Notes under the pieces: model-generated
Told to the model about the DNA's origin: nothing
Seen by the model: only the letters and a program-made list of their open reading frames with translations
Databases searched by the model: none
Made by a program: the position numbers and the translations under genes
Origin: an uncultured beta proteobacterium
GTDB lineage: Bacteria > Pseudomonadota > Gammaproteobacteria > Burkholderiales > Burkholderiaceae_C
Direction: 5' to 3'
NCBI GenBank assembly: GCA_903894475.1
Contig: CAITQH010000102.1
Coordinates: 1-41,726, forward strand
DNA: 41,726 nucleotides
In this document: positions 1,705 to 31,563 of the stretch, one piece after another
Layout of the letters: every line of letters starts with the position of its first letter
How positions within the stretch are numbered: position 1 is the first letter of the stretch

Positions 1705-3834
1705 ATGAGAAAGTCCATCCTGCAGACCTACAAGATCGGCATCGACGTCGGTGGCACCTTCACCGACTTCGCCCTGATGGGCAGCAAGGGTCGCTCGGCC
1801 GTGCACAAGCAGTTGTCGACACCGGCCGATCCATCGATCGCGGTGATGGCCGGCCTGGCAGCACTGGCGCAGGCTGAGGGGCTGAGCTTCGATGTCTTTC
1901 TGGGCCAGGTCGCGCTGATCGTGCACGGCACGACGGTGACAACCAACGCGGTGCTGACTGGCCGCACCGCACGCACTGCCTTGCTGACGACACGCGGATT
2001 TCGCGACACCTTGCAGATGCGCCGCGGCGTACGCGAGATGATGTACGACAACCGCTGGCATGCGCCGGAGCCTATCGTGCCACGCCAGCTGCGGCTGCCG
2101 ATTACCGAGCGCGTCGATGCTGCTGGAATTGAGTTGGTGGCACTTGATACGGCCGATGTTGAAGTGGCGATACAGACGATGCGCGAGCAGGGCATCGAGG
2201 CCGTGGCGATCTGTTTTATGCACGCCCATGGCAGCGCCGCGCACGAAGAGGACGCTGCACGCCTGGTGCAGCAGGGAATGCCGCAGGCCTACCTGTCCGT
2301 GTCCTCGCGCGTCTTGCCACAAGTGCGGTTTTATGAACGCACCAGCACCACCGTGCTGAACGCGGGGGTCGGGCCGATCCTCGCGCATTACCTGGACCGA
2401 CTGAATGCTCGTCTGGCCGAGGCACAGTGGCGCGGTACGCTGCTCATCATGCAGTCCAACGGTGGCACCGCCGCGCCGGCGAGCGTGCGGCGCCTGGCCG
2501 CTTCAACGCTGTTGTCTGGTCCGGCTGCCGCGCCGGCAGCGGGACTCGCATGGATGGCACCCACACGCAAAAGGAGCTTCATCACCGTCGACATGGGGGG
2601 CACCAGCTTCGACGCCGCCCTGGTCCAGGGTGGCCAGCCCGCGGTAACCACGTCCGGCCACGTGAACCGTTTTGCGATGGCGCTGCCCAGCATGGAGATC
2701 AACACCATCGGTGCCGGCGGAGGGTCGATTGCCTGGATCGACGATGGCGGCCTGCTGCACATGGGGCCGCAAAGTGCTGGCGCCGATCCCGGCCCGGCCT
2801 GCTACGCCAGGGGTGGTACCGAGCCCACCTGCACGGATGCCAACCTGGTGCTCGGCTACCTGTCGGCCAGCTACTTTGCCGGGGGACGTCTGCCACTGGA
2901 TGAGCTGGCCGCGCGCAACGCCATCGACAAACGCATCGCCAAGCCGCTCAAGCTGTCGCTGGTCGAGGCGGCGCAGGGTATGTTCCACGTCATCAACGTA
3001 GCGATGGCCGCGGCGATCCGCGAGATATCGGTACAAAAGGGCTTCGACCCGCGCGAGTTTCCGCTGGTGTGCGCCGGTGGAGCCGGGCCGCTGCACGGCG
3101 CAGCCATCGCCGAGGAGCTCGGCATCGAGCGCGTCTTTGTGCCGCGCGAGTCGTCGGTGTTCTGCGCCTCGGGCATGCTGCACAGCGACCTCAAGCACGA
3201 CCACGTGCGCAGCTTTGCACGCGTGCTGCATCCGCCCGGGCCCGATCGTGTGCAGGTGCGCACCGGTGTGCGCGCTCTGCTGCGTGAGCTGCGTGCGCAG
3301 GGCCGCGCGGCATTGTGGGCTGAGGGTATCGCCGCTGAGCGGCAGCAGATACGCCACGCGCTGGACCTGCGTTACACAGGGCAGTATCACGAAGTCACGG
3401 TCGACGTGCCGGACGAACTGCTTGACCGCGCCGATTGGGCCGCAGTGGCCGAACTGTTCCACCGCCAGCACGACCGGCTGTACGGCTACGCACTTCGCGA
3501 TGAAGGCACGCCCGTCGAACTGCTCAGCCTGCGTGTGGCCGCCGTTGGCATCACTGACAAACCGGCGCTCAAGCGCCAGCCGCGCACCACGTCTGCGCCG
3601 CGCGCCGCGCTCAAGGGCAGGCGCCCAATCTACCTGCCTGGACGCACGGCCAGCAGCCAGGTACCGGTCTACGACGGCGAACGGCTGCTGCATGGCCACC
3701 AGTTCAACGGTCCGGCACTGATCGAAAGCGCCAACACCAGCATCCTCGTGCCGCCGGCCTGGGTCGCAGAAATCGACGCGCTCGGCAGTTGTGTGCTCTG
3801 CGTGCGTCCTGGAGTCAAGAGGTCACCCAAATGA
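1705..3834 (+). CDS. Hydantoinase/oxoprolinase family alpha subunit (HyuA-like; also the family of acetone/acetophenone carboxylases)
   Basis: 'YKIGIDVGGTFTDFALMG' and 'SGPAAAPAAG...VDMGGTSFDAALV' ASKHA-type motifs; ORF opens at 1585 but ATG at 1705 is likelier. Confidence 0.9.
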   Translation: MRKSILQTYKIGIDVGGTFTDFALMGSKGRSAVHKQLSTPADPSIAVMAGLAALAQAEGLSFDVFLGQVALIVHGTTVTTNAVLTGRTARTALLTTRGFRDTLQMRRGVREMMYDNRWHAPEPIVPRQLRLPITERVDAAGIELVALDTADVEVAIQTMREQGIEAVAICFMHAHGSAAHEEDAARLVQQGMPQAYLSVSSRVLPQVRFYERTSTTVLNAGVGPILAHYLDRLNARLAEAQWRGTLLIMQSNGGTAAPASVRRLAASTLLSGPAAAPAAGLAWMAPTRKRSFITVDMGGTSFDAALVQGGQPAVTTSGHVNRFAMALPSMEINTIGAGGGSIAWIDDGGLLHMGPQSAGADPGPACYARGGTEPTCTDANLVLGYLSASYFAGGRLPLDELAARNAIDKRIAKPLKLSLVEAAQGMFHVINVAMAAAIREISVQKGFDPREFPLVCAGGAGPLHGAAIAEELGIERVFVPRESSVFCASGMLHSDLKHDHVRSFARVLHPPGPDRVQVRTGVRALLRELRAQGRAALWAEGIAAERQQIRHALDLRYTGQYHEVTVDVPDELLDRADWAAVAELFHRQHDRLYGYALRDEGTPVELLSLRVAAVGITDKPALKRQPRTTSAPRAALKGRRPIYLPGRTASSQVPVYDGERLLHGHQFNGPALIESANTSILVPPAWVAEIDALGSCVLCVRPGVKRSPK

Positions 3835-5591
3835 AGCGCGATGCTATCCAGGTCTCGGTGCTGCAACGGCGCCTGAAGTCCATTACCGAGGAGATGGGCC
3901 TGACGCTGTTGCGCACCACGCGCTCGCCGATTCTCAATGAGGCGCGCGACTTTGTCACCGGCTTGTACGACGCCAAGGGTCGCATGCTGGAGCAGACCGA
4001 GTACATACCGGTGCTGGCCTTCGCGCTGCAGCCGGCTTGCGAAAACGTGGTGCGCTTTTTCGGCGATGACATCCACCCCGGCGACGTCATCCTGCACAAC
4101 GACGTCTTCAGCGGCGGCAACCAGAATAACGACGTCGCGGTCTTCAAGCCGATCTTCGATGGCAAGACGCTGGTCGCCTGGGCCGCCTGCAAGGGTCACC
4201 AGGCCGATATCGGCGGCGCCGTGCCCGGTGGCTACAACCCCGAGGCACGCGAGGTCTGGCAGGAGGCGCTGCGCATACCGGCAGTGAAAGTTGTTGAGCG
4301 CGGCAAGCTCAGACGCGACGTGTGGAACCTGATTTTTGCCAATATCCGGCTGAAGATTGTCGAAGAGGACATCAAGGCGCAGATCGGTGGCTGCACCGTC
4401 GGTGAGCGGGGCTTTCATGGCCTGCTGGCCCGTTTCGGGCGGCCCACGCTGCAGCGTTTGCTGGAAGACCTTTTCGACAGCAGCGAACAGATGGTTCGCT
4501 CAGAGATCGCAGCCATCCCCGACGGCCGCTATTGCGGTGACTCCACGGTTTTTTACGACGGCGTCACCGATGGCAGCACGATGCAGATCGCGCTCGCCGT
4601 GACGGTGCAGGGCAATGGCATCAGCTTTGATTTCAGCGGCTCGTCGCCGCAGACGCCCGGCTTTGTCAACGCCCCCTATGCCGCCACGGCATCGGCGCTG
4701 TTGCTGACCTTTCTGATGCTGATCAACCCGGAGATCCCGCACAACGCCGGCATCCTGCGGCCAATCAAGATCATCAACCCCGAGGGCTCCTTCCTCAACG
4801 CCCGTTTCCCGGCCGCCACCACTTTCGGCAATTCGATCACCGGACCGACTTCGGACGCCATCTTTCGGGCCATGGCACAGGCGCTGCCAAAGGTGGTCAC
4901 CGCAGGCTGGAACCGTTTTCTTGGCTTTGCCGTATCGGGCGACGACCCCCGGCACGCGGACCACCGACGCTATGCCGATATTCTGTTCCTGTCGCTCAAG
5001 GGCGGCTCCGGTGCGACCCACGGCGCTGATGGTTTCGATCACATTGGCCTGATCAATTGCGCCGGCGGCATACTGGCGCAGGATTACGAGATGTTCGAGA
5101 TCCATAACCCACACTTGCTGCGCAAGCACGAATATCTGAGCGACAGCGCCGGGGCGGGTCAGTGGCGTGGCGGTCTGGGCGTCGAGACCGAGTTTGAGAT
5201 GCTGGGCGAAAACGTCACCGGTGTCGCTTTCGGTGATGGCATCGAGGAAGCCGCGCGCGCCTTTGGTTTCTTCGGTGGCGGAGTCGGTTCGCGCAATGCC
5301 ATCGTGCTGACCTATCCCGACGGCACGCAGCGGCGCGTGAAGTCCAAGGAGATTATTCGCGGCATTCCGCCCGGCACCGTTTTCCACCAACTCGCAGGTG
5401 GTGGCGGGGGCTATGGTGATGCCTTTGACCGGCCCGCCGAGCGGGTGGCGTCAGATGTAAGCGCCGGTGTAGTGAGTGTGCAGGCTGCGCGCCAGGACTA
5501 TGGCGTGGTCGTCGACGCCACCAGTGGCGCGCTCGATGCCGCTGGCACAGGCAGGCTGCGTGCACGACACAAGCCAAGGAGCAAGGCATGA
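3831..5591 (+). CDS. Hydantoinase B/oxoprolinase family subunit (HyuB-like)
   Basis: 'NDVFSGGNQNNDVAVFKPIF...KGHQADIGG' HyuB signature; ATGA overlap with hyuA. Confidence 0.9.
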   Translation: MKRDAIQVSVLQRRLKSITEEMGLTLLRTTRSPILNEARDFVTGLYDAKGRMLEQTEYIPVLAFALQPACENVVRFFGDDIHPGDVILHNDVFSGGNQNNDVAVFKPIFDGKTLVAWAACKGHQADIGGAVPGGYNPEAREVWQEALRIPAVKVVERGKLRRDVWNLIFANIRLKIVEEDIKAQIGGCTVGERGFHGLLARFGRPTLQRLLEDLFDSSEQMVRSEIAAIPDGRYCGDSTVFYDGVTDGSTMQIALAVTVQGNGISFDFSGSSPQTPGFVNAPYAATASALLLTFLMLINPEIPHNAGILRPIKIINPEGSFLNARFPAATTFGNSITGPTSDAIFRAMAQALPKVVTAGWNRFLGFAVSGDDPRHADHRRYADILFLSLKGGSGATHGADGFDHIGLINCAGGILAQDYEMFEIHNPHLLRKHEYLSDSAGAGQWRGGLGVETEFEMLGENVTGVAFGDGIEEAARAFGFFGGGVGSRNAIVLTYPDGTQRRVKSKEIIRGIPPGTVFHQLAGGGGGYGDAFDRPAERVASDVSAGVVSVQAARQDYGVVVDATSGALDAAGTGRLRARHKPRSKA

Positions 5592-6022
5592 CTGCGACGA
5601 CGATTGCACCGCCCCCCTACATTGACCACATCGGCATCGTCGTCGCCGATCTTGATCAGGCGGTCGAGAAGCTGCGCCCCTTGTTCGGCATTCCCGCGCG
5701 GACCAAGGAACTGCCCGAGGTCGGTCTGCGCGTGGCCGAGTTCGACGCTGCCAATGTGGTGATCGAGTTGCTGCAGTACACAGATGGCCCAAACAGCTTC
5801 GCGCAGCAGGTGATGGGTCAGCGGCTCGGCTTGAACCACCTGTCGGCGCGGGTCACTGATGTCGAGCAGTCAGTAGAGGACTTGCATGATGCCGGCTTCA
5901 TCCCGATGGCCGGTTTCCCCCGACAGGGCGCGCACGGCCGGGTCGCTTTTTTCGAGCCTGACGCGGTGACGGGCTTGCTGTTTGAAGTTTGCCAGGTTGA
6001 CGCGAAGGAGCACACCGCATGA
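5588..6022 (+). CDS. VOC/glyoxalase-fold protein, methylmalonyl-CoA epimerase-like
   Basis: 'YIDHIGIVVADLDQAVEKL...LNHLSARVTDVEQSVEDLHDAGF...GRVAFFEPDAVTGLLFEVCQ'; ATGA overlap with the previous gene. Confidence 0.8.
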   Translation: MTATTIAPPPYIDHIGIVVADLDQAVEKLRPLFGIPARTKELPEVGLRVAEFDAANVVIELLQYTDGPNSFAQQVMGQRLGLNHLSARVTDVEQSVEDLHDAGFIPMAGFPRQGAHGRVAFFEPDAVTGLLFEVCQVDAKEHTA

Positions 6023-7401
6023 TGACCGCACAGGATCCGCAGCGCCGCCTCTGGAACGAGCGCATCGAACTGATGTCGCAGGACGAAATGCGCGCGCTGC
6101 AGCTATTGCGGCTGCAGCGACAGGTGGCCTACAACCACGCCAACTCGCCCTATTACCGCGAGCGGCTCGACGCAGCCGGCGTCAACCCACGCGATATTGC
6201 GAGCTTCGAGGACTTCGCGCACGTGCCGCTGATGGACAAGGTTGAGCACCGGCGCGTGCAGGAGGAGTCACTCGCGCGCCACGGCACGCCTTTCGCCTTG
6301 CTGGCCTGTGCGCCGCGGGAAAAAATTGTGCGTGTCAGCGCCACCTCGGGCACCACCGGCATGCCTACGCTGTACACACTCACCGCGCACGACGTTGCGG
6401 TGGTCAACGAGATGCATGCGCGCAAATACTGGCGAGCCGGCATACGACCCGGGCACGTGATGGTGCAAGCACTGTCTTTGTCGATGTTCACTGGCGGACT
6501 GCCGCTCTCGCAGGGCATACAGCACCTCGGTGCCTGCGTGGTGCCGGTCGGTATCGAGGGTGGCACGCAGCGCGTGCTCGACTTTGCCCACCTGACCCGA
6601 CCCGACGCGCTGATCGCCACGCCGTCCTTTGGTCAGTACCTGATCGAGCAATGTCCCACGCTCACCGGCAAGCCTGCCACTGAACTTGGCTTTCGATGGT
6701 TCTTCTGCGCTGGAGAGCCCGGTGGTGGCAACCCGGGACTGCGCCGGCTGTTGGCTGACGGCTTCGATGCCAAGGTGTTTGACCACACCGGTGGCGGCCA
6801 CGCCTTTCACGGCATCTCATGCGACGAATCGCCCGACGAATACAAGGGCATGCACTTCACCTCCGAAGACCATTGCCTGCTGGAACTGGTTGACCCGCAT
6901 ACGCATGCGCCCATCGCGCTCACGGACGGTGCCGTTGGCGAGATGGTGTTTACTTTCTTGGACTGGGAGGGCGGTCCCTTCATGCGCTATGCGCTGGGCG
7001 ACCTGATCCAGGTCTGGACCAAGCCATGCAGTTGCGGCATGCCGGGCCTGCGTTTCAAGATCGTGGGGCGCACGGATGACATGCTGATCGTCAAGGGCGT
7101 GAACCTGTACCCCGAGGCGATTCGCCAGGTGTTGATGGGCTTTGCGCCGCGTGTGACAGGCAGCTTTCGCATCCGGCTGCCGCAGGCGGGGCCCAAAGTC
7201 ACGCCGCCGCTGCACTTGCGCATCGAACATGGCCAGGACCTTGCCAAGGCAGACCTGCCAGAACTTGAAGCGCAGTTGCAGGCGCGCATGCGCTCCGAAC
7301 TGCGCGTGGCGCCGCGCATCGAATGGCTCGCGCCCGGTACACTGCCGCGCGAGGCGCACAAGACAAAATTCATCGAAATCGTGCGCGACCCCGGCCAATG
7401 A
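6019..7401 (+). CDS. Phenylacetate-CoA ligase family (PaaK-like) adenylate-forming enzyme
   Basis: 'VSATSGTTGMPTLYTLT', 'MRYALGDLIQVW...CSCGMPGLRFKIVGRTDDMLIVKGVNLYPEAI'. Confidence 0.88.
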   Translation: MMTAQDPQRRLWNERIELMSQDEMRALQLLRLQRQVAYNHANSPYYRERLDAAGVNPRDIASFEDFAHVPLMDKVEHRRVQEESLARHGTPFALLACAPREKIVRVSATSGTTGMPTLYTLTAHDVAVVNEMHARKYWRAGIRPGHVMVQALSLSMFTGGLPLSQGIQHLGACVVPVGIEGGTQRVLDFAHLTRPDALIATPSFGQYLIEQCPTLTGKPATELGFRWFFCAGEPGGGNPGLRRLLADGFDAKVFDHTGGGHAFHGISCDESPDEYKGMHFTSEDHCLLELVDPHTHAPIALTDGAVGEMVFTFLDWEGGPFMRYALGDLIQVWTKPCSCGMPGLRFKIVGRTDDMLIVKGVNLYPEAIRQVLMGFAPRVTGSFRIRLPQAGPKVTPPLHLRIEHGQDLAKADLPELEAQLQARMRSELRVAPRIEWLAPGTLPREAHKTKFIEIVRDPGQ

Positions 7402-8235: not shown

Positions 8236-8874
8236 ATGAAACGCATTTGGGACATTTCTTCGCCGCTGCATCCGGGCTCGCCGGTCTTTCCCGGCGACAC
8301 GGCCTATCGCCAGCACTGGACCGCCACCATTGCACCGGACTGCCCGGTCAATGTGAGCGCGCTGACGCTGTCGCCGCATGTCGGCAGCCACGCCGATGCT
8401 CCCTTGCACTACGACCCCCAGGGTGAGCCGGTTGGCGCTCTGGATTTGCAACCCTATCTGGGACCCTGCCGCGTGATCCATGCGATCCGTTGTGGAGCGC
8501 TGATTGAGTGGCGGCACCTCGCCCATGCGCTGCAGGATCTGCCGCCACGCGTGCTGGTGCGCACCTACGAGCGCATGCCGGTGGACCACTGGGACCCAGC
8601 TCTGACCGCCTTCTCACCCGAGACAGTGGAGCACCTGGCCGATCTGGGTGTGCTGCTGGTGGGCATCGACACTGCCAGCATCGACCCGGCGGACAGCAAG
8701 ACGCTGCCGAGTCACCAGATGATCCGACAGCGCGGCTTGCGCGTGCTGGAAAATCTGGTGCTTGACGCGGTGCCGGAGGGCGACTACGAACTGATTGCCT
8801 TGCCGCTCAAACTCATGCTCGCCGATGCGTCACCGGTGCGAGCCATCCTGAGAGAACTTCATGATTACCCTTGA
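8236..8874 (+). CDS. kynB: Kynurenine formamidase (arylformamidase)
   Basis: 'WDISSPLHPGSPVFPGDTAY...LSPHVGSHADAPLHY'; overlaps kynU. Confidence 0.92.
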   Translation: MKRIWDISSPLHPGSPVFPGDTAYRQHWTATIAPDCPVNVSALTLSPHVGSHADAPLHYDPQGEPVGALDLQPYLGPCRVIHAIRCGALIEWRHLAHALQDLPPRVLVRTYERMPVDHWDPALTAFSPETVEHLADLGVLLVGIDTASIDPADSKTLPSHQMIRQRGLRVLENLVLDAVPEGDYELIALPLKLMLADASPVRAILRELHDYP

Positions 8875-10147
8875 ACACTGCCAACAACTCGACCTGCAGG
8901 ATCCGCTGCGCGCGCTGCGCGAGCAGTTCAACCTGCCCAGCGGAGTGATCTACCTCGACGGCAATTCGCTCGGCGCCTTGCCAAAGAGCACCGCTGCGCG
9001 AGTCGCCCAGGTGGTGACGCAGGAGTGGGGGCAGGGACTGATTGGCTCCTGGAACGAAGCCGGCTGGTTTGACCTGCCGCAGCGCCTGGGTGACCGCATT
9101 GCTCCCCTGATCGGCGCTGCAGCGGGCGAGATCGTGGTGACCGACAGCACCTCTATCAATCTGTTCAAGGTGCTCAGCGCCGCGCTGCAGATCGCCAAAA
9201 GCGCTGATCCGGCAAGGCTCAGGGTGCTTTCCGAGCGCGACAATTTTCCGACCGACCTCTACATTGCTGAGGGCCTGTGCCGTGCGCAAGGCGGCACGCT
9301 CGAACTGCTTGAAGCCGGGCAACTGGCAGCGGCGCTGGCGCCTGAGGCGGCGCAGGATGTGGCAGTGCTGCTGCTGACCCATGTGAACTACCGCAGCGGC
9401 GCCATGCACGACATGGCGGCACTCACGGCGGCTGCGCACCGGGCCGGCGTACTCACGGTGTGGGACCTGGCGCACAGCGCAGGCGCGGTGCCCGTGAACC
9501 TGAAGGCGGACCAGGCGGATTTTGCGGTCGGCTGTGGCTACAAGTACCTCAACGGCGGCCCGGGCGCGCCGGCGTTTGTGTGGGTCAGCCCGCAGCATGC
9601 AGATCGCTTCTGGCAGCCACTGGCGGGCTGGTGGGGCCATGCGGCGCCCTTTGCCTTTACGCCCGACTACCAGCCCGCGAGCGGCATTGCGCGCTATTTG
9701 TGCGGCACCCAGCCCATCATCAGCCTGTCGGCACTGGCTTGCGGGCTCGACACCTTCAGCGCTGCCGAGTCCCTGGGTGGCATGGCCGCGTTGCGCGCCA
9801 AGTCGCTGGCGCTGAGCGACCTGTTCATCACCCTGGTGGAGCAGCGCTGCGCCGGTCATGGCCTGACCGTGGTGACTCCGCGCGAGCACGGTCGGCGCGG
9901 CTCGCAGCTCAGTCTGGCGAGAGAGCAGGGCGGCTACGCCATCATGCAGGCCCTGATCGCGCGGGGTGTCATCGGCGACTTTCGCTCAGGCGACGGCAAG
10001 CAGCGAGCCGATATCCTGCGCTTTGGTCTGACCCCCTTGTATACCGGCTTTGAAGAGGTGTGGCAGGCGCTGGAACAGCTGCGCCAGGTACTTGTCAGTG
10101 GCGAGTGGCAGCGCTCCGAGTTCAGCCTGCGCAAGGTAGTGAGCTGA
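8861..10147 (+). CDS. kynU: Kynureninase
   Basis: '[16 protein letters not shown]...[14 protein letters not shown]', '[15 protein letters not shown]...[16 protein letters not shown]' PLP site. Confidence 0.95.
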
Positions 10148-10148
10148 T

Positions 10149-10988
10149 ATGGGCACCCCCGAGCAGATCCTGGCTGCGGAAAATGCGAAGCTCGATTTCA
10201 GCCGCTCCATGAGCTATGGCGACTACCTGCACCTTGACCAGATTCTGGGCGCCCAGGTTCCGCTGTCGCCCGACCACAACGAGATGCTGTTCATCATCCA
10301 GCACCAGACCAGCGAGCTCTGGATGAAGCTGATGCTGCATGAGCTGCGGGCGGCCATGGCCTGCGTCGCCAGTGATGAGTTGGGCAGCGCCTTCAAGATG
10401 CTGGCGCGCGTCAGCAAGATCATGGAGCAACTGGTGCACGCCTGGGACGTGCTGGCCACCATGACGCCGCCCGAGTACAGCGCGATTCGTCCCTACCTGG
10501 CCAATTCCAGCGGCTTTCAGAGCGCGCAGTACCGCTGCATCGAGTTTGCGCTTGGCAACAAGAACGCCACCATGCTGCAAGCGCACGCGCACCGGCCTGA
10601 CCTGCTGGAGCAGGTGCAGGCGGCGCTGGTGGCACCGTCGCTGTACGACCAGGCGCTGCGCCTGCTGGCACGCCGCGGCATCGCCGTGCCTGAGAGCCAC
10701 ACAGAGCGCGACTGGAGCCAGGCCTACCGCGCCAGCCCGGCAGTGGAAGAAGCCTGGCTGGTGGTGTACCGCAATCCGCGTGAGCATTGGGATCTGTACC
10801 AACTGGGCGAGGAACTGACGGATTTGGAAGACGCTTTTCGGCTCTGGCGCTTTCGCCATGTGACGACGGTGGAACGGGTGATCGGCTTCAAGCGCGGCAC
10901 GGGTGGTACCGGCGGCGTCAGCTACCTGCGCAAGATGCTCGACGTGGTGCTGTTCCCCGAAATCTGGACTCTGCGCACCAGCCTCTAA
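10149..10988 (+). CDS. kynA: Tryptophan 2,3-dioxygenase
   Basis: '[15 protein letters not shown]...[24 protein letters not shown]', '[30 protein letters not shown]'. Confidence 0.96.
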
Positions 10989-22832: not shown

Positions 22833-23402
22833 CTATGGCCCCAGCGCGCGACCGCGCTCCAGTGCTTCCAGATTGGCGCCGCGTTGCGCCACGCCGCTCA
22901 GGGCCTCGATGGCTTGCCGGACCTCCGCATAAGTGAAGAGGAAGTCTGACTGGCTCGAAGCAAAGCCGAGCAGCACCAGGTTGGCCATCATCGGGCTGTG
23001 CATGCGCAGCGCGACAGCGTCGGCATCGCAGGTGTGAACGGTGACCTGCATTTCGCTCAGCAAGTCAGCCACCCGCTGGTCGGGAAAAGCTTGTTCATCC
23101 GGTGCGTTGACCACGCAAAGGGCGCTTCGGCCATTCTGCCTGGAACGCAGATAGGGCAGGGCGCGGTGCGATTCCATGCAGTCCAGACCGAGCAGCAGGT
23201 CGGCATCGCCTTCACGAACCAGGGGACTGCTGAATTGACCGATCTTCAGGTGGGTCATGACCGAGCCGCCGCGCTGGGCCATGCCAAATGTCTGCGACCC
23301 CAGCACAGGCACGTCTTTGCGCCGCGCCACCTCAATGAAGATCTTGGTCGTGAAAAGAACCCCCTGACCACCGACCCCCGCAATGATGGCCTGTGCTCTC
23401 AT
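22833..23402 (-). CDS. iorB: Indolepyruvate oxidoreductase subunit beta (IorB-like 2-oxoacid oxidoreductase gamma domain)
   Basis: 'AIIAGVGGQGVLFTTKIFIEVA...GSQTFGMAQRGGSVMTHLKIG'; ATGA overlap with the upstream gene. Confidence 0.87.
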   Translation of the reverse strand: MRAQAIIAGVGGQGVLFTTKIFIEVARRKDVPVLGSQTFGMAQRGGSVMTHLKIGQFSSPLVREGDADLLLGLDCMESHRALPYLRSRQNGRSALCVVNAPDEQAFPDQRVADLLSEMQVTVHTCDADAVALRMHSPMMANLVLLGFASSQSDFLFTYAEVRQAIEALSGVAQRGANLEALERGRALGP

Positions 23403-26400
23403 GCGCCGGCCAGCACCTGCTGGGTCAAGAGTGGCTGGATTGCTCCCTGCGCGCAGACCTGGATGCAAATGCCGCAATCAATGCAGGTGCGTCGGTCAAT
23501 ATCGACCAGGCCATCCGCTCGACGCTGCAGCGAGGGGCATTCGAACCAAGTGGTGCAATAGCCGCAGGCAATGCAGACACCGACGGGTGCCATGCTGATC
23601 GCGCCACGCGGGCATTGCGCCTGGCAAACGCGACAGGCGGTGCATTTGTCGGCGTCGATCTGGTAGCTGCCCGCAACCAGCGTGATCGCGGCGGTCGGAC
23701 AGACATGGACGCAGATGTCGCAGTGCGTGCAGACCCCGCAGTGAAAGCAGCGCTCGCTGGCCTCGGCGCTGGCGGCTTCGGTGCCCAGACCAAGATTGAC
23801 TTCGTCGAAGTTCCAGATTGAATCGGCAGGCGCTCGATGGCGCGCCTGCGCGCGCTCGGTCTTGCTGAAGAACTGCAGCTTGATATCCTGCGCCGCGGCC
23901 ACTGGCAAGGCCTGCTGCGCGCGCGCCGGGCTGGCGCTTGCCAGCTTCGCGCAGGCGATGCCGGGGCCGGCTGCCAGTTGCAGGGCCGGTGCATCGATCG
24001 TTGCGCCGCCCAGTCGCTCATGGATCCCCAGGGCGGCCCGCTTGCCGGCATTGACGGCGCCAACCACGGTGCCAACGCCGCTGCTGGCGGCGTCACCGCC
24101 GGCAAAAATGCGCGGCTGCGCGGTGCTTCCCCACGGGTCGACCTGGATCCGGCCACTTAGGGCCAAACCCGCCTCGCCGAGGTAGGCCAGGTCGGCATCG
24201 CCGCCGATGCACACCAGGACGCTCTCGGCCTCATTGGTTTCGGTGTAGAAGGGCGGCGAATCGGCCGGCAGATCCGGCTTCGCCAGCGCAAGGTCGCGCA
24301 GCAGCAGTTTGAGCCGATGGGTCTCACCGGGCTCGAAACTGACCGGCACCAGCGCATGATGAAACACGATGCCTTCCTCGCGTGCCGCGCTCACTTCTTC
24401 GGGTATCGCCAGCAGCACGTCATAGTAAACGTCCACCACGGCGCCCTGACGCCGAGCGCTGCGTGCCGCATCGATGGCGGTGTTGCCACCGCCAATCACG
24501 GCGACGCGCGAGCCCAGTTCGGGCGTCTCTTCGGCACGCAGCCGGTACAGGTAGTCAAGCCCGCTGAGGACCCCGACCCGGTCCTCCCCGGTAATCTTAA
24601 GGCGCCTTTGTTGCCAGGCGCCAGTGGCCAGATAGACGGCGTCAAAGCGATCGAGTTCAGACCAGGCCAGATTGCTTCCCAGACGAACTCCCGTGTGCAC
24701 GGTGACGCCGAGCGACTTGAATACTTCGAGTTCCCGCTGCAGCACGCTGGTCGGCAGCCGGTACTGCGTGATGGCCCAGCGCAGCATGCCGCCGATTTCA
24801 GGCAGCGACTCAAAGATTTCGACAGCGTAGCCCAGGCGCGCCAACTGGTATGCGGCGCTCAAGCCCGAAGGGCCGGCTCCGACCACGGCCACCGTCTTGC
24901 CCAGTGCCTGCCCGCGCTTGGCAAAGCCGGCGGCCGAGCGACCACGGTCACCCGCCATGCGCTCGATGGCGTTGATGGACAGGGCGCCGTCATGGACGCC
25001 GCGGTTGCAGTTACTCTCGCACGGATGCGGACAGACGCGGCCCAGGGTGGACGGAAAGGGGTGCTCCTGGTAGAGCATGTTGGCGGCCTCCAGCCACTGG
25101 TCCTGCGCCGCCAGCGTCATCAGTCGCTCGATGTCGTTGCCGGCTGGACAGGCTTCGGAGCAGGGCGACAGGCGGTCCTGGTGGTGCGGCATCCACGGCG
25201 CATCCAGTGCGCCGGTGGCGCCTGGTGAACGCGGGCGCGCTCCATGGCGCACCTCGACGGCAACGGCCACCTTGCCCGGACCCAGGCCTTTGTGCTGCGC
25301 CACGCAGGCGTAGCGGGCCAGGACAACGGCAACGCCGCCCTGCTCGGCACGGCTGTGCGCCAGTGCGTCGAGCAGCACGCGATGGAAGCTGGCCAGATCG
25401 TGGGGGTCGGCGTGTACCAGGTAGTTGATGCCGCAGCCCCTGATCAGGGTCTCGAGCTGGACAATGCCCCCGCTGTGGCCGCCGGCGGTCTGGCCGGACT
25501 CGGGAGTCGGTTGCATGCCGGTCATGCCGGTGGTGCCGTTGTCCAGCACCAAGAGGACAAAGCGGGCGCCGTTGTAGACAGCGTTCTCCAGTCCCGCTGC
25601 CCCGGAGTGAAAGAAGGTACCATCGCCAATGGTGGCGAAAATCGGTGGTGCTTTGCCGTCCTGGGCGTAGGCGTGATAGAAGCCCGAGGCCATCGAGATC
25701 GAGGCCCCCATGTCGTGCACGGTGTCAACCGCACCCTGGTTCAGCCCCAGGGTGTAGCAGCCGATATCGCCCGGGAACAGGGCGTCCGGAAAGGCACGCC
25801 GCAGGGCATAAAACGTGGCGCGGTGGCCGCACCCGGGGCAGAAGGTAGGACGGCGCACCGGCAATTCCAGCGTCGCTACGGCCTGCAGCATGCGGTTAGC
25901 AGCTCGCTCATGGGCGATCAGCCCGGCCTCGCTGGCTGCCGTGACCAGATGTTTTTCGATGACACCGGGAGTCAGTTCACCGTGCGAGGGAACATGCCCG
26001 CTCAGGCGCCCCCAAACCGGCATTGGCAGCCTGATCTGGAGTTCGACAGCAGCGTCGGTTTCCTCAAACACGATGAGCCGCTCGCAGCGGCTGGCAAAAT
26101 CCTCGAGCAAAGCGCGCGGCAGCGGATAGGCGGTGGCGATCTTCAGAATCGGACATTGGTCCGCCAGCCCGAGAGCGGGCAACAGATCGGCCAGGTAGGA
26201 GTAGCTGACACCGGCTGCAACCAGGCCCAGTGGTGAGCGCTGCTGACTCGATCCTGGTGGGAAGAAGGCATGATTGACAGGCCAGCCTTCGAACTCTTTT
26301 TCAATCGCCGCCAGTTTTTCGTTCAGTTGCTTGTGCAACTGCATTCTGGCGCGTGGCGCTGCCGCCCAGCGTTGCGGATTCTTCTCGAAATCGGCGCTTC

Positions 26401-27007
26401 GACCAGCGGCCTGCGTTGGCTTGCATTCGATCGATTGCTCCGAGTGACAGACGCGCACCGTGGGCCGCAGCAGCACCGGTATCTGATGACGTTCGGACAG
26501 TTCGAAGGCGAGCGTTACCATGTCCCTGGCTTCCTGCGGCGTGCTGGGGTCGAGCGCCGGGATTTTGGAGAACAGCGAGAACAGCCGCGAGTCCTGCTCG
26601 GTTTGCGAGGAGTGCAGTCCGGGGTCATCGGCGACGATCAAAACCAGGCCGCCTACCACGCCGACATAAGCAGCGGAAAGAGCCGCATCTGCCGCCACGT
26701 TGAGTCCCACCTGTTTCATGGCGACAGCAGCACGCTTGCCGGCATAGGCTGCGGCCAGCGCCGTCTCGAGGGCGACCTTCTCATTGGTTGACCACTCAAC
26801 GTAAACATTGACGCCGAGTTCATTCCTGAAGGCGACCACGGCCGGCAGTATTTCGGAGCTTGGCGTGCCCGGATAGGCGCTCATGAACTGGCAGCCCGAT
26901 TCAACGAGGCCGCGGGCAATCGCCTCGTTGCCCAGCATCACGCGGTGGTCATGGATGGCCATTGTCAGTATTCCATCAAACGGGCTGATAGAGACTTCAA
27001 GGCTCAT
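23399..27007 (-). CDS. Fused IorA-like (indolepyruvate:ferredoxin oxidoreductase alpha) + GltD-like FAD/NAD(P) oxidoreductase + C-terminal multi-[4Fe-4S] ferredoxin domain
   Basis: 1202-aa uninterrupted ORF. aa ~16-590 IorA ('AYPGTPSSEILP', 'CPGCGHRATFYALRRAF', 'ATIGDGTFFHSGAAGL...LDNGTTGMTGMQ'); aa ~612-1000 GltD-like ('CSEACPAGNDIERLM', 'RVCPHPCESNCNRG', 'VAVVGAGPSGLSAAYQL', 'VAVIGGGNTAIDAARSA'); aa ~1087-1190 Fe-S ('CFHCGVCTHCDICVHVCP', 'CTACRVCQAQCP', 'CIDCGICIQVC'). Confidence 0.88.
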   Translation of the reverse strand: MSLEVSISPFDGILTMAIHDHRVMLGNEAIARGLVESGCQFMSAYPGTPSSEILPAVVAFRNELGVNVYVEWSTNEKVALETALAAAYAGKRAAVAMKQVGLNVAADAALSAAYVGVVGGLVLIVADDPGLHSSQTEQDSRLFSLFSKIPALDPSTPQEARDMVTLAFELSERHQIPVLLRPTVRVCHSEQSIECKPTQAAGRSADFEKNPQRWAAAPRARMQLHKQLNEKLAAIEKEFEGWPVNHAFFPPGSSQQRSPLGLVAAGVSYSYLADLLPALGLADQCPILKIATAYPLPRALLEDFASRCERLIVFEETDAAVELQIRLPMPVWGRLSGHVPSHGELTPGVIEKHLVTAASEAGLIAHERAANRMLQAVATLELPVRRPTFCPGCGHRATFYALRRAFPDALFPGDIGCYTLGLNQGAVDTVHDMGASISMASGFYHAYAQDGKAPPIFATIGDGTFFHSGAAGLENAVYNGARFVLLVLDNGTTGMTGMQPTPESGQTAGGHSGGIVQLETLIRGCGINYLVHADPHDLASFHRVLLDALAHSRAEQGGVAVVLARYACVAQHKGLGPGKVAVAVEVRHGARPRSPGATGALDAPWMPHHQDRLSPCSEACPAGNDIERLMTLAAQDQWLEAANMLYQEHPFPSTLGRVCPHPCESNCNRGVHDGALSINAIERMAGDRGRSAAGFAKRGQALGKTVAVVGAGPSGLSAAYQLARLGYAVEIFESLPEIGGMLRWAITQYRLPTSVLQRELEVFKSLGVTVHTGVRLGSNLAWSELDRFDAVYLATGAWQQRRLKITGEDRVGVLSGLDYLYRLRAEETPELGSRVAVIGGGNTAIDAARSARRQGAVVDVYYDVLLAIPEEVSAAREEGIVFHHALVPVSFEPGETHRLKLLLRDLALAKPDLPADSPPFYTETNEAESVLVCIGGDADLAYLGEAGLALSGRIQVDPWGSTAQPRIFAGGDAASSGVGTVVGAVNAGKRAALGIHERLGGATIDAPALQLAAGPGIACAKLASASPARAQQALPVAAAQDIKLQFFSKTERAQARHRAPADSIWNFDEVNLGLGTEAASAEASERCFHCGVCTHCDICVHVCPTAAITLVAGSYQIDADKCTACRVCQAQCPRGAISMAPVGVCIACGYCTTWFECPSLQRRADGLVDIDRRTCIDCGICIQVCAQGAIQPLLTQQVLAGA

Positions 27008-29019
27008 CCGACGCGGACAAAGTCAGGCGCGCGTCGTTCGCCAAAGGCCGCGATGCCTTCGCGCGCTGCCGCTGTGCAGGCGCTGTCACCAAAGGCGAGG
27101 TAACCGATCTCCAGCGCCGCCGCAAGGGTAGGTGCTTGCGCCGCCTGTTGTACCGCACGCTCAAGCAAAGAAAGCGTGGTGGGACTCAAGGCCATGCCAC
27201 TCGCCGCTTTGGCGTCCGTGGGTTCGAAGGCGGGCAGGGTGAATGGCGCGTCGGCGATGCGTGCATGCCCCTGCGTCAGGGCATGCACACGCGCGACCGC
27301 CAGGGTGATCAGACCGGCCGAGTCTTTTGCTAAAGCATCCACCACACCGAGCGCCAGGGCCTGTTTGGCCTTGAGTTTCTCGCAGCGTCGCAGCATGCCG
27401 TGGAAGGTGCTTGCGGCCTGCGGCCAGCGGCGATAGGGCACCACCATGGCGCCGATGCCAGGCAAGATGCCCAGACTCACTTCGGGAAGCTGCATCCAGC
27501 TGTGCTCGACGGCAAGCAGCGCGTGGCAGCGCATCGCCAACTCAAAACCACCGCCCAGGGCCATGCCATTGAGGGCAGCCACCACCGGCTTTTGCATGGC
27601 ATCCAGATGTACCAGCAGACGCGAGCAGTCGCGTGAGTACTGCGCAGCCGCGTCCTTGTCACCGAGCATCGACGGGAAACGACCGATGTCGGCGCCGGCA
27701 CAAAACGCCTTGTTGCCATAACCGGTGATGACAAATCCGGCCACACCGGGGTCGCTCTCGAATCGACGGATCACTGCCAGAATTTCATCCGTCATTTCAT
27801 CATGCAAGGCATTCAAGGCTTCGGGGCGGCGCAGCGTGATGATCTTCACACCGTCCAGATCGTCCACCAGCACATGGCGCTCGAAGCGCAGGTAGTCAGC
27901 CAGGGGTTTGCGCGGCATGGGCATGCCGGGTCGCTCCTGCGCCAGTCGGTCCAGGATGCGTTGCGCCTCGACGAGCGGGGTCTGGCGCAGCAGTGCGAGC
28001 GGCCCGCTCTTGAAGCCGAGCGCGGTACAGCACCCCAGGTCAAGATCGGCCGGTGTGCCGACGGCACGGTCCAGAATGTCAACCGACTGCGACCACAGGA
28101 TACCCAGCAGACGATCCCTGGTGGCTTGTGCCACAGTGGCTGGCACATCTACGCGCTTGCCGGGTGCCACGGTGAGCCAGTTCTGTACGGATTTGAAGAC
28201 CGGTGCCGGGCGGTAATGCTCGCCTTCTTCATCGGCCTGCAACGTATTAGTCTCGGTGATGATCGGGTTGCCGCGCGCCAGATTGAGCACAAAGAAGGGC
28301 CCGGCATGGACGAATTCCGTGGCCACACTGTCAATTTCAGCGGCACTCGCCTGGTTGAGCAGCAGCGCGGCCTCGTTACACCAGTTGTCAAAGATGCGGT
28401 CCAGCATGAAGCAGGGAACGTCCGTGGTGGTCAATGGCACTTTGCCGGTGTTGCAGAATATCCAGCGCAACCAGAGCACCAGTTCCGGCGCTGCGCCAGA
28501 CCAGGCTATCACCTCCACCGCCGGGTTGCGCCACGCCGGCGCGAAGAAGTGGGTGACCGTGGCGCGCTCCTTGTGCTGGAGTTCGGCAAAGATGCGCTCG
28601 GCTGGTAGGGAACTGGTGTTGGAGGTGATGACTGCGTCGCTGGCCACGCGGGCCTCAATCTCGGCAAAGATGCGCCGCTTGAGTTTGATGTTTTCAGTGG
28701 CGGCTTCGATCACCCAGTCACAGCCCTTTATGGCGTCGTAGTCGGTGCTGCCGTGGACGTTCTGCTGCACCGCTGCCGCCTGCTGTGCGCTCATCTTGCC
28801 CTTGGCCAGTGCCTTGTTGGCATAGTCGGCAAAGCGGGCCAGGGCGGCGTCGATGGCGGCTTGCGAAATGTCGATCAAGGTCAGCTTGAGCTCGGGCAGC
28901 GTGCTCTTGAGGTAATAGCCTATGTCCGGTCCGATCGAGCCCGCGCCGATCACGGCGACGTGGCGCGGCAGGCCGCGCTCGGGTGTCTGTAGAAGTGGGT
29001 TGTCCAGCGTCACTTGCAT
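27004..29019 (-). CDS. Fused 3-hydroxyacyl-CoA dehydrogenase (N-term) / enoyl-CoA hydratase (C-term)
   Basis: N-term 'HVAVIGAGSIGPDIGYYL...VIEAATENIKLKRRIFAEIE...SNTSSLPAERIF'; C-term 'GVKIITLRRPEALNAL...NKAFCAGADIGRF...GMALGGGFELAMRC...LPEVSLGILPGIG'; ATGA overlap with the IorA fusion. Confidence 0.88.
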   Translation of the reverse strand: MQVTLDNPLLQTPERGLPRHVAVIGAGSIGPDIGYYLKSTLPELKLTLIDISQAAIDAALARFADYANKALAKGKMSAQQAAAVQQNVHGSTDYDAIKGCDWVIEAATENIKLKRRIFAEIEARVASDAVITSNTSSLPAERIFAELQHKERATVTHFFAPAWRNPAVEVIAWSGAAPELVLWLRWIFCNTGKVPLTTTDVPCFMLDRIFDNWCNEAALLLNQASAAEIDSVATEFVHAGPFFVLNLARGNPIITETNTLQADEEGEHYRPAPVFKSVQNWLTVAPGKRVDVPATVAQATRDRLLGILWSQSVDILDRAVGTPADLDLGCCTALGFKSGPLALLRQTPLVEAQRILDRLAQERPGMPMPRKPLADYLRFERHVLVDDLDGVKIITLRRPEALNALHDEMTDEILAVIRRFESDPGVAGFVITGYGNKAFCAGADIGRFPSMLGDKDAAAQYSRDCSRLLVHLDAMQKPVVAALNGMALGGGFELAMRCHALLAVEHSWMQLPEVSLGILPGIGAMVVPYRRWPQAASTFHGMLRRCEKLKAKQALALGVVDALAKDSAGLITLAVARVHALTQGHARIADAPFTLPAFEPTDAKAASGMALSPTTLSLLERAVQQAAQAPTLAAALEIGYLAFGDSACTAAAREGIAAFGERRAPDFVRVG

Positions 29020-29066
29020 CGCGTCTTCCTCGGTTCTGGCGTCAACTCGACATCTGGTCGAAATAG

Positions 29067-29106
29067 TTGACACCTGCGTCCAATGCGCCTATCGTATACC
29101 GAATAC
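29067..29106 (+). promoter_or_regulatory. Putative sigma70-type promoter with overlapping ATAC-N3-ATAC element in the divergent intergenic region
   Basis: TTGACA (29067-29072), 17-bp spacer, TATCGT (29090-29095), overlapped by ATACcgaATAC (29096-29106). Confidence 0.45.
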
Positions 29107-29202: not shown

Positions 29203-30048
29203 ATGATCCAGCCTCAACGCCAACCCGAGATGCCTGACCTGCGCGTCGTTCCAGTGGCCGACCTGCTGCTGCACGAGCAGCACGACGCGCAGCGCAGCGA
29301 GCCACTGTTGCAGCGTCTGCGCACCGATGGTGTGCTCAAGAATCCACCCATCGTGGCCACGATTCCGGGCGAGCAGCGCTACGTGGTGCTGGATGGTGCC
29401 AATCGAGTCACCGCAGCGCATGCCTTGGGGATGGAGCACATTGCGGTCCAGGTCGTTGATTACGAGGACCCGGAACTGATTCTTGACACCTGGTATCACC
29501 TCATCAAGGGCATGGATGTTGAGCAATTCAAGGATTTGCTGGCCGGGCTTCCGGGGATCAGAACCGAGGCAGCCGACCTGATGCACGCACGGGCACTGCT
29601 TGCGCGGCGGGAATCGCTGGCCTTTGTCGAATATCCGCATGGTGAGGTTTGTAGTCTGTTTGCAGAGGGCAATTTGCACCAGCGAACGCAGCGGCTCAAC
29701 GACATCGTCGATCTCTACAAGGCGCGCGGTCGAATCTTTCGTGCCAATACGGACCATCTGCCATCGTTGCTGTCACTCTATGATGATATTACGGTGCTGG
29801 TGGTTTTTCCGCATTACGCGCCGGCTGAAATTGTTGATCTGGCCCGGGTCGGGGCTTTCCTGCCGGCCGGAATTTCGCGCCACTTGATTCCACGACGCGC
29901 GCTGCGCATCAACCTGCCGCTGGCGATGCTGGGCAACGGCGCAAGCCTGGACGAAAAGAACCGCTGGCTAAGCGACTGGATGAAAGAAAAAGTCGCCGCG
30001 AAAGCAGCGCGCTATTACCAGGAGTCGACCTTCTTGTTTGATGAGTGA
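29203..30048 (+). CDS. ParB/sulfiredoxin-fold protein resembling free-serine kinases (SerK/SbnI)
   Basis: 'VPVADLLLHEQHDAQRSEPLLQRLRTDGVLKNPPIVATIPGEQRYVVLDGANRVTAAHALGMEHIAVQVVDY...TWYHLI' and C-terminal 'ISRHLIPRRALRINLPL' follow the layout recalled for SerK/SbnI (HEQ-like motif, DGxxR, RH-x-x-P tail). ORF also allows start 29185. Confidence 0.7.
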   Translation: MIQPQRQPEMPDLRVVPVADLLLHEQHDAQRSEPLLQRLRTDGVLKNPPIVATIPGEQRYVVLDGANRVTAAHALGMEHIAVQVVDYEDPELILDTWYHLIKGMDVEQFKDLLAGLPGIRTEAADLMHARALLARRESLAFVEYPHGEVCSLFAEGNLHQRTQRLNDIVDLYKARGRIFRANTDHLPSLLSLYDDITVLVVFPHYAPAEIVDLARVGAFLPAGISRHLIPRRALRINLPLAMLGNGASLDEKNRWLSDWMKEKVAAKAARYYQESTFLFDE

Positions 30049-30133
30049 CGCTCAGTCAGAATTGCCCATGTTCTCATCAGGGGCAGGGTAAACCTCAGCA
30101 AACAAGGTCTTTTAATTCATGCTAAAGGCGTGC

Positions 30134-30144
30134 ATACTGTATAC
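30134..30144. promoter_or_regulatory. Second ATAC-N3-ATAC element upstream of trpB2
   Basis: ATACtgtATAC, same spacing as the element at 29096-29106. Confidence 0.3.
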
Positions 30145-30192
30145 GGGAATCCCCCTCCATCCGCGTTATCAATAAATTTCTGAGGAGCAAAC

Positions 30193-31563
30193 ATGAGTCA
30201 TCAAACGAAGTACCTTTTGGAAGAGAGCCAGATGCCACGCTTCTGGTACAACATTCAGGCGGACTTGCCCAAGCCGGCGCCCGCAGTGTTGCATCCGGGT
30301 ACCTTGCAGCCAGTCGGTCCTGACGATCTGGCTCCGCTATTCCCCATGACCTTGATCATGCAGGAAGTGAGCATGGAGCGCGAGATAGAGATTCCCGAAC
30401 CGGTGCGTGATGTCTTTCGCCTCTGGCGTCCGGCGCCCATGTTCCGCGCGCACCGACTCGAAAAAGCACTGGGCACCCCGGCCAAGATTTACTACAAATA
30501 TGAAGGTGTCAGCCCGGCAGGCAGCCACAAGCCGAACACTGCCGTGCCGCAGGCGTTCTATAACAAGGAAGCGGGTGTCAAACGGATAACCACCGAGACC
30601 GGTGCCGGGCAGTGGGGGTCCTCAATGGCCTTTGCAGGTTCTTTGTTCGGTCTGCAGGTTGAGGTGTTCCAGGTTCGGGTGTCGTATGACCAGAAGCCCT
30701 ATCGGCGCGCCCTGATGGAAACCTATGGCGCACGTTGCGTGGCCTCTCCGTCCAATGAAACGGTCTATGGGCGCGCGGTGCTGGCCGAGAACCCGAATCA
30801 TCCTGGCAGTCTGGGTATCGCGATTTCGGAGGCGGTCGAGTTGGCGGTACAGCGCGAAGACACCAAGTACGCGCTGGGCTCGGTATTAAATCATGTGTTG
30901 CTGCACCAGACCATCATCGGGCAAGAGGCGATGGAGCAGATGCAGATGGCCGATGACTGGCCTGATGTGGTGGTCGGTTGCTGCGGTGGCGGCTCCAACT
31001 TTGCCGGTATCGCTTTTCCGTTTATGGGTCACGGCTTGCGCGGTGGCAAGACGTCGCGCTTCGTCGCGGTGGAGCCTGCTGCCTGCCCGTCATTGACGCG
31101 AGGCAAATACGCCTACGATTTTGGCGACACCGGTCGCATGACGCCCCTGACCAAGATGCACACTCTGGGCAGTCAGTTCACGCCACCGGGCTTTCATGCC
31201 GGAGGCCTGCGCTACCATGGCATGTCACCGTTGGTCTCGCATTGCAAGGAACTGGGCTTGATTGAAGCCGTGGCCTACAACCAGGTCGAGTGCTTTGAGG
31301 CGGCTGTGCTGTTTGCGCGCAATGAGGGCATCGTGCCCGCACCCGAGTCCAGCCACGCCATCAAGGGTGCCATTGCCGAGGCCATGCGATGCAAGCGCGA
31401 AGGCAAATCCGAAACGATCCTCTTCAATCTGTCGGGCCACGGCCATTTCGACATGATGGCCTACCAAAAGTACTTTGCCGGCGAAATGTCAGACGCACTC
31501 TACGACGAAGCCGAACTGGCCAAGTCCTTGGCGGGTCTGCCCAACGTGCCTGAAACGGCTTGA
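30193..31563 (+). CDS. trpB2: TrpB-like PLP enzyme of the TrpB2 type (tryptophan synthase beta homolog)
   Basis: 'YYKYEGVSPAGSHKPNTAVPQAFYNK' PLP-Lys site, 'TTETGAGQWGSSMAFAGSLFGLQVEVFQVRVSYDQKPYRRALMETYGA', 'GCCGGGSNFAGIAFPF'; ~456 aa; RBS gaggag; no trpA partner in the window. Confidence 0.9.
   Translation: MSHQTKYLLEESQMPRFWYNIQADLPKPAPAVLHPGTLQPVGPDDLAPLFPMTLIMQEVSMEREIEIPEPVRDVFRLWRPAPMFRAHRLEKALGTPAKIYYKYEGVSPAGSHKPNTAVPQAFYNKEAGVKRITTETGAGQWGSSMAFAGSLFGLQVEVFQVRVSYDQKPYRRALMETYGARCVASPSNETVYGRAVLAENPNHPGSLGIAISEAVELAVQREDTKYALGSVLNHVLLHQTIIGQEAMEQMQMADDWPDVVVGCCGGGSNFAGIAFPFMGHGLRGGKTSRFVAVEPAACPSLTRGKYAYDFGDTGRMTPLTKMHTLGSQFTPPGFHAGGLRYHGMSPLVSHCKELGLIEAVAYNQVECFEAAVLFARNEGIVPAPESSHAIKGAIAEAMRCKREGKSETILFNLSGHGHFDMMAYQKYFAGEMSDALYDEAELAKSLAGLPNVPETA

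Follow-up and report, generated by a model that had tools for sequence, protein, structure and literature searches.

SerK of Thermococcus and SbnI of Staphylococcus phosphorylate free L-serine to O-phospho-L-serine (OPS). SbnI feeds SbnA, a fold-type II PLP enzyme, in siderophore synthesis, and its kinase activity needs Glu20 and Asp58 (Verstraete 2018, as cited in PMC9641203). SerK is ADP-dependent and serves cysteine synthesis and the assimilation of serine (PMC5120207), and one archaeal SerK-like protein was reported to have CTP bound instead of ATP (PMC12704722). OPS dependence has also been described for TrpB2 enzymes (Busch 2014, as cited in PMC11917138), and no kinase partner was found reported in that account of them. 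TrpB2 enzymes have a high affinity for indole, and their use in indole scavenging has been discussed (PMC11917138).

Anaerobic indole degradation was presented in a 2018 review as an oxindole-isatin route, the mechanism of which was still a black box (PMC6221969). In the anaerobic iaa operon of Aromatoleum, indoleacetate enters via a ligase, and the pathway enzymes include the CoA-transferase IaaL, the mutase IaaGH and the dehydrogenase IaaF (PMC8360864). The 2-oxoindoleacetyl-CoA gamma-lactamase belongs to the hydantoinase branch (PMC5214803). Here we analyze a betaproteobacterial locus in which a predicted serine kinase adjoins TrpB2; the presence of such a pair inside Chloroflexota operons suggests that bacteria may capture and degrade indole by a route not known before.

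The predicted kinase gene and its TrpB2 neighbor

The window, which is the whole stretch of 41,726 nucleotides that was analyzed, is contig C102 of a draft genome. A preliminary description placed a kinase-like gene and a TrpB2 gene on the same strand, 144 bp apart, and both the coordinates and the gene identities were correct (Table 1). That no trpA accompanies them is true of the window; however, trpF, trpB1 and trpA are grouped on another contig of this genome, C99.

Table 1. Features of the window and of related loci (positions are those of the window unless a locus is named)
Feature	Position	Strand	Remarks
Hydantoinase A-type ATP-dependent lactamase subunit	1705..3834	+	51% identical to subunit in Rhodoferax indoleacetate-type cluster
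Hydantoinase B-type subunit	3834..5591	+	56% identical to Rhodoferax counterpart
IorB, indolepyruvate oxidoreductase beta subunit	22833..23477	-	
IorA fused to NAD(P)H:acceptor (GltD-like) and ferredoxin domains	23399..27007	-	Third partner common to both phyla
3-hydroxyacyl-CoA dehydrogenase/enoyl-CoA hydratase (HADH/ECH) fusion	27004..29073	-	80% identical homologue flanks Rhodoferax L255 indoleacetate-type cluster
Sigma-70-like promoter of kinase gene, TTGACA-17-TATCGT	29067..29095	+	Conserved in L007-L009; ~1.3 such sites expected by chance in region scanned
Predicted SerK/SbnI-type free-serine kinase gene (P0001, 281 aa)	29203..30048	+	Homology, pocket motifs, C-terminal SRH, model
Conserved block upstream of trpB2, GGGTAAACCT ... 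CGTGCATACTGTATACG	30087..30147	+	Found also at kinase-free Rhodoferax L179
TrpB2 (P0002, 456 aa)	30193..31563	+	Lys113, ETGAGQ, GGGSN, Arg340 in place of TrpB1 Asp305
C-x2-C-x4-C protein (Chloroflexota)	L204 6776-7066; L205 4251-4553; L185 8951-9259; L253 9477-9782		

Residues 12-279 of P0001 align with SbnI (NCBIfam NF033589, E=5e-19; PDB 5ujd, 2e-13), and the SerK profile matches with E=2e-16, most strongly in the N-terminal half. P0001 scored below both NCBIfam equivalog cut-offs (SbnI, 68.6 bits vs 350; SerK, 59.9 vs 380), and by these scores it is a homologue that belongs to neither equivalog. It is ~22–25% identical to SbnI and, over the structural alignment, ~18% identical to SerK. The HEQ-like, DGANR and SRH motifs named in the preliminary description were all found (H24-E25, D64-G65-A66-N67-R68 and S225-R226-H227). 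The asparagine of DGANR, which had been regarded as an anomaly (SbnI has DGVHR), is normal in this subfamily, as N occupied position 67 in 60 of 61 close relatives and H in 21 of 21 SbnI-like ones. E25 and D64, which correspond by alignment to Glu20 and Asp58 of SbnI (E25 also to E30 of SerK), were invariant across 82 relatives, as were H24, R31, W97, H99, R180, R232, R270 and Y272; the pattern used to scan for relatives demanded DGA[HN], and conservation of D64, G65 and A66 is thus partly a product of selection.

In an AlphaFold model of P0001 (pLDDT 92.4, from an alignment of 44 sequences) the whole length resembled SbnI and SerK, which made up the nine best PDB matches (E 5e-15 or better, TM 0.67–0.83). 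The next matches were partial ones to ParB/Srx structures over the ~80-residue N-domain (E 3e-4 and worse). Canonical ParB structures covered ~80 columns, Pfam ParB_N fell below its cut-off and no HTH family matched P0001. Based on the sequence, the catalytic Glu and Asp, the model and the CBS-type neighbors of its relatives in genomes that mostly lack cysE, P0001 is probably a free-serine kinase, as had been proposed. It is similar to SerK in fold, pocket and predicted product, OPS, and to SbnI also in its pairing with a fold-type II PLP enzyme, which in this case would be TrpB2 rather than SbnA.

P0002 is a clear member of the TrpB2 family (NF009057, 743 bits vs a cut-off of 366; TIGR01415, 631 vs 519), and its nearest solved structure is 6hul. 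Where the TrpB1 of the same genome has AGLDYPG, P0002 has GGLRYHG, with Arg in place of the serine-contacting Asp. The OPS-dependent TrpB2 enzymes have the same Arg, and Arg340 fits phosphate recognition and the predicted use of OPS; P0002 differs from them in its bacterial and apparently catabolic setting. The residues SHKPN after the catalytic Lys were considered as a mark of kinase-paired TrpB2 and rejected, as they are not specific to paired enzymes.

The conserved block upstream of trpB2 is a probable promoter independent of the kinase. Its presence at a kinase-free locus means that betaproteobacteria need not transcribe the pair together, and the idea of a kinase-trpB2 operon in the lineage of the window is weakened, as the block is older than the kinase. 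The hexamer GTATAC occurs in the promoter regions of both the kinase gene (29094) and trpB2 (30139), and may represent a shared operator; it was found at both promoters in the window and L009, at neither in L007 and inexactly in L008.

Divergent from the kinase gene are iorB, iorA and the HADH/ECH gene (22833–29073), and iorA is kept at this position in L008 and L009. The hydantoinase A/B genes are possibly a distant part of an indoleacetate-type pathway, to judge from their similarity to the Rhodoferax genes, and a CaiB-family gene is also present; no molybdenum hydroxylase, B12 mutase or dedicated aminotransferase was seen within the window. Genes for kynurenine formamidase, kynureninase and tryptophan 2,3-dioxygenase stand in a row after those for a PaaK-like CoA ligase and an SDR (8236–10988; 6019–7401), and a route from tryptophan to anthraniloyl-CoA may therefore be encoded on the same contig as trpB2.

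Recurrence of the pairing in two phyla

The kinase type of the window was found beside trpB2 in four betaproteobacteria only, namely the window and three more genomes (L007–L009), and their pairing is a single gain. In Rhodoferax (G675), the closest relative in which the two genes are separated, trpB2 lies next to serB and mfd without a kinase (L179), and the kinase gene is on a different contig. The conserved block precedes trpB2 at this kinase-free locus too, and the order of events is most simply read as a resident trpB2 that the kinase gene joined later. In two other betaproteobacterial relatives (G673 and G674) the kinase was found and TrpB2 gave no match. The proximity of serB, mfd and ispD to trpB2 represents an older synteny, as it was also found at kinase-free loci (L128, L131, L133, L136 and L179), and SerB was rejected as a part of the module. 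At one of these, L136 (6306–8359), serB and trpB2 are on the same strand and ~27 bp apart, which is another phosphoserine link for TrpB2.

A whole-genome search revealed a second kinase paralogue (subfamily 2) in Chloroflexota, 36–40% identical to P0001, which the DGA[HN] scan had overlooked. This kinase was found in 12 of the 400 genomes searched, all of one Chloroflexota order, directly 3' of trpB2 and directly 5' of iorA. Its neighbor was trpB2 in all 11 genomes where the contig reaches far enough for this to be determined and iorA in 12 of 12, the distance to iorA being 7–67 nt. A single clade of both TrpB2-linked kinase groups was rejected (p-AU 0.0012, quick tree), and the TrpB2 tree likewise splits the betaproteobacterial from the Chloroflexota kinase-linked enzymes. 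This indicates that the pairing is convergent, with the kinases recruited separately.

The kinase-TrpB2 pairing is thus beyond chance and is not confined to the genome of the window; the functional link that had been suggested for the two genes gains from this recurrence and from the Arg in place of the TrpB1 Asp. Two Chloroflexota operons of the same type have no kinase, so that the kinase is not obligatory, and TrpB2 with neither a kinase nor indolepyruvate oxidoreductase (IOR) nearby is common. General co-presence of kinase and TrpB2 was not enriched across Chloroflexota (11 of 18 kinase genomes vs 120 of 221 overall). In a text search of open-licence literature, we found no paper describing the pair.

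IOR and indoleacetate-type operons

Among TrpB2 loci with adequate flanks, iorA was within 6 kb of trpB2 at 14 of 14 kinase-linked loci vs 2 of 48 others, although the Chloroflexota loci were chosen by kinase similarity and are related, and the independent cases are two clades and not fourteen. Both iorA-positive loci without a kinase were the same Chloroflexota operon minus that gene.

The Chloroflexota operons comprise, in order, trpB2, the kinase gene, iorAB, three subunits of a molybdenum hydroxylase, a HisC-like aminotransferase, a VOC protein and CaiB (a family III CoA-transferase). These are followed by an acyl-CoA dehydrogenase, a B12 mutase (B12-binding and large subunits), hydantoinase A/B and benzoyl-CoA-reductase-type subunits with their activator, and then by MaoC-, SDR- and thiolase-type genes that were named by eye from the sequence. 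The molybdenum subunit scored best against 4-hydroxybenzoyl-CoA reductase. In Rhodoferax (G675), a cluster runs from a ligase through hydantoinase A/B, acyl-CoA dehydrogenase, mutase, molybdenum hydroxylase and CaiB to an NnrS-like gene and a P0001 homologue, the last standing two genes past the indoleacetate-type cluster.

The gene set of the Chloroflexota operons looks like that of a complete indoleacetate pathway, with counterparts of IaaL, IaaGH, IaaF (PMC8360864) and the 2-oxoindoleacetyl-CoA gamma-lactamase (PMC5214803). The mutase, acyl-CoA dehydrogenase, CoA-transferase and hydantoinase genes of the Aromatoleum iaa operon recur in both the Rhodoferax and the Chloroflexota clusters. None of the NCBIfam matches for these operons was to an iaa model, and so the iaa assignments rest on composition and homology. 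Unlike Aromatoleum, the Chloroflexota operons add trpB2, a serine kinase and iorAB, with which indoleacetyl-CoA is predicted to be reachable from indole or tryptophan.

Based on the gene set, fold and residues observed, we consider it on balance probable that the kinase-TrpB2 pair provides an ATP-paid entry of indole into an indoleacetate-type pathway, with the enzyme activities being predicted ones. The kinase would form OPS from L-serine and a nucleotide, and TrpB2 would join OPS to indole, as the presumed nucleophile, to give tryptophan, a step that loss of phosphate would make irreversible. This tryptophan would not be mainly for protein. An aminotransferase would convert it to indolepyruvate, from which the neighboring IorAB, assigned at the level of its family, would form indoleacetyl-CoA. 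An iaa-type route would then lead through molybdenum hydroxylase, hydantoinase-type lactamase, family III CoA-transferase and B12 mutase, and on through acyl-CoA dehydrogenase and beta-oxidation, to 2-aminobenzoyl-CoA. The direction of flux, and the remaining pathway in the genome of the window, are likewise presumed. Indole is the likely starting compound because tryptophan or indoleacetate alone would need neither TrpB2 nor OPS.

More tentatively, we propose that these genes represent an undescribed route of indole degradation, consisting of OPS-driven loading by TrpB2, IOR and the indoleacetate pathway, that has evolved on at least two occasions, each time with a serine kinase recruited separately. 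The enzyme families are all known; their combination and its use would be new. If this is correct, it would provide a concrete gene-level pathway for indole degradation with a testable first step, and would explain in catabolic terms some of the stand-alone TrpB2 genes, which are widespread. It would also follow, as a general rule, that a SerK-like protein with a ParB annotation is a marker of a PLP enzyme that uses OPS.

Two further Chloroflexota and Burkholderiales observations concern TrpB2 loci. Between a PaaX-like regulator and trpB2 in Chloroflexota there is a conserved protein of ~100 aa with a C-x2-C-x4-C motif, which had no Pfam or NCBIfam match and a low-confidence model. At L138 (545–4108), from a different Burkholderiales genome that has no kinase, trpB2 appears to share an operon with kynA and a kynureninase-like gene in the order kynA-kynU-trpB2, a further hint that TrpB2 can serve tryptophan catabolism.

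Alternative readings and other partners of the kinase

The preliminary description saw in the pair a self-contained bypass of TrpA/TrpB. An OPS-fed TrpB2 that serves tryptophan biosynthesis or indole salvage, with the nearby IOR unrelated, would be consistent with the indole scavenging discussed for TrpB2 (PMC11917138) and with the pairing in four betaproteobacteria. In other Chloroflexota, trpB2 is directly downstream of tryptophanyl-tRNA synthetase (L181, 5043–7660; L182, 4377–6793), which is consistent with tryptophan supply, and TrpB2 in those genomes likely has a different, supply-type role. We nevertheless consider this reading unlikely for the pair. The presence of trpB1-trpA in the genome, and a trpB2 promoter region that is separate from that of the kinase and older, make the bypass less likely. 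TrpB2 was found in 69 of the 300 Burkholderiales genomes sampled and the kinase in one, that of the window. The linkage to IOR, which lies in catabolic operons, and the position of the Chloroflexota kinase between trpB2 and iorA also stand against it.

It is quite unlikely that the same catabolic logic acts on another nucleophile, such as a substituted indole or a phenol-like compound, which would be converted via an arylalanine and an arylpyruvate to an arylacetyl-CoA. IOR-family enzymes may accept other arylpyruvates, neither they nor PaaX-type regulators are indole-specific, and the best score of the molybdenum subunit also suits this reading. However, the combination of a hydantoinase-type lactamase, a family III CoA-transferase and a B12 mutase is that of the indoleacetate pathway (PMC8360864, PMC5214803), a lactam fits an N-heterocycle only, and the TrpB2 enzymes described have high indole affinity (PMC11917138).

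We doubt strongly that the kinase is a general source of OPS for making cysteine or assimilating serine, in the manner of Thermococcus, with its adjacency to trpB2 incidental. SerK does serve cysteine synthesis and serine metabolism (PMC5120207), the genome of the window carries CysK and CysM, and G673 and G674 have the kinase without a TrpB2 match. Where a partner of P0001-like genes was recognized, it was most commonly a PLP enzyme of the CBS/CysK type, in many cases on the same strand and within ~100 bp upstream; such genes adjoin P0001 relatives at ~20 loci, with at least four changes forced by well-supported branches. P0001-type kinases are thus found time and again with enzymes for which OPS is a possible substrate. 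The genome also has cysE, however, and kinases separately recruited in two phyla lie beside TrpB2.

It is very improbable that P0001 has no enzyme activity and instead regulates trpB2 or the divergent ior cluster as a ParB-like protein that binds DNA, as its ParB fold, the divergent promoters and the reports of SbnI and the related EdeB as transcriptional regulators (PMC9641203) are set against a whole-length SerK/SbnI fold, of which canonical ParB proteins cover only a part, and a catalytic Glu and Asp kept throughout its relatives.

P0001-like proteins were found in Chloroflexota, Eisenbacteria and a few betaproteobacterial MAGs, and in none of the other Burkholderiales and Pseudomonadota genomes sampled. 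At many loci (L014, L020–L023, L025, L028–L030, L037, L056, L057, L060 and L061) the kinase gene is directly behind one of cystathionine-beta-synthase type. A cysE match (E<=1e-20) was missing in 22 of 30 kinase genomes, although these are drafts and some absences may represent incompleteness. The CBS-kinase loci, chiefly from Chloroflexota and in genomes mostly without cysE, likely encode a route to cysteine or cystathionine that is based on OPS. Scans of viral contigs for the kinase found nothing, and plasmid and phage searches found SbnI-like genes only. EdeB of Brevibacillus is SbnI-like and was reported as a transcription activator, and edeine contains diaminopropionate (PMC9641203); by analogy, EdeB may also be an OPS-making kinase. 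On Macrococcus plasmids (L004, 5416–11319; L006), an SbnI-like gene is accompanied by hydroxylase-family, NUDIX, peptidase and CysK-family genes, pyrE and a dihydroorotate dehydrogenase gene, in what is apparently an unstudied biosynthetic cluster.
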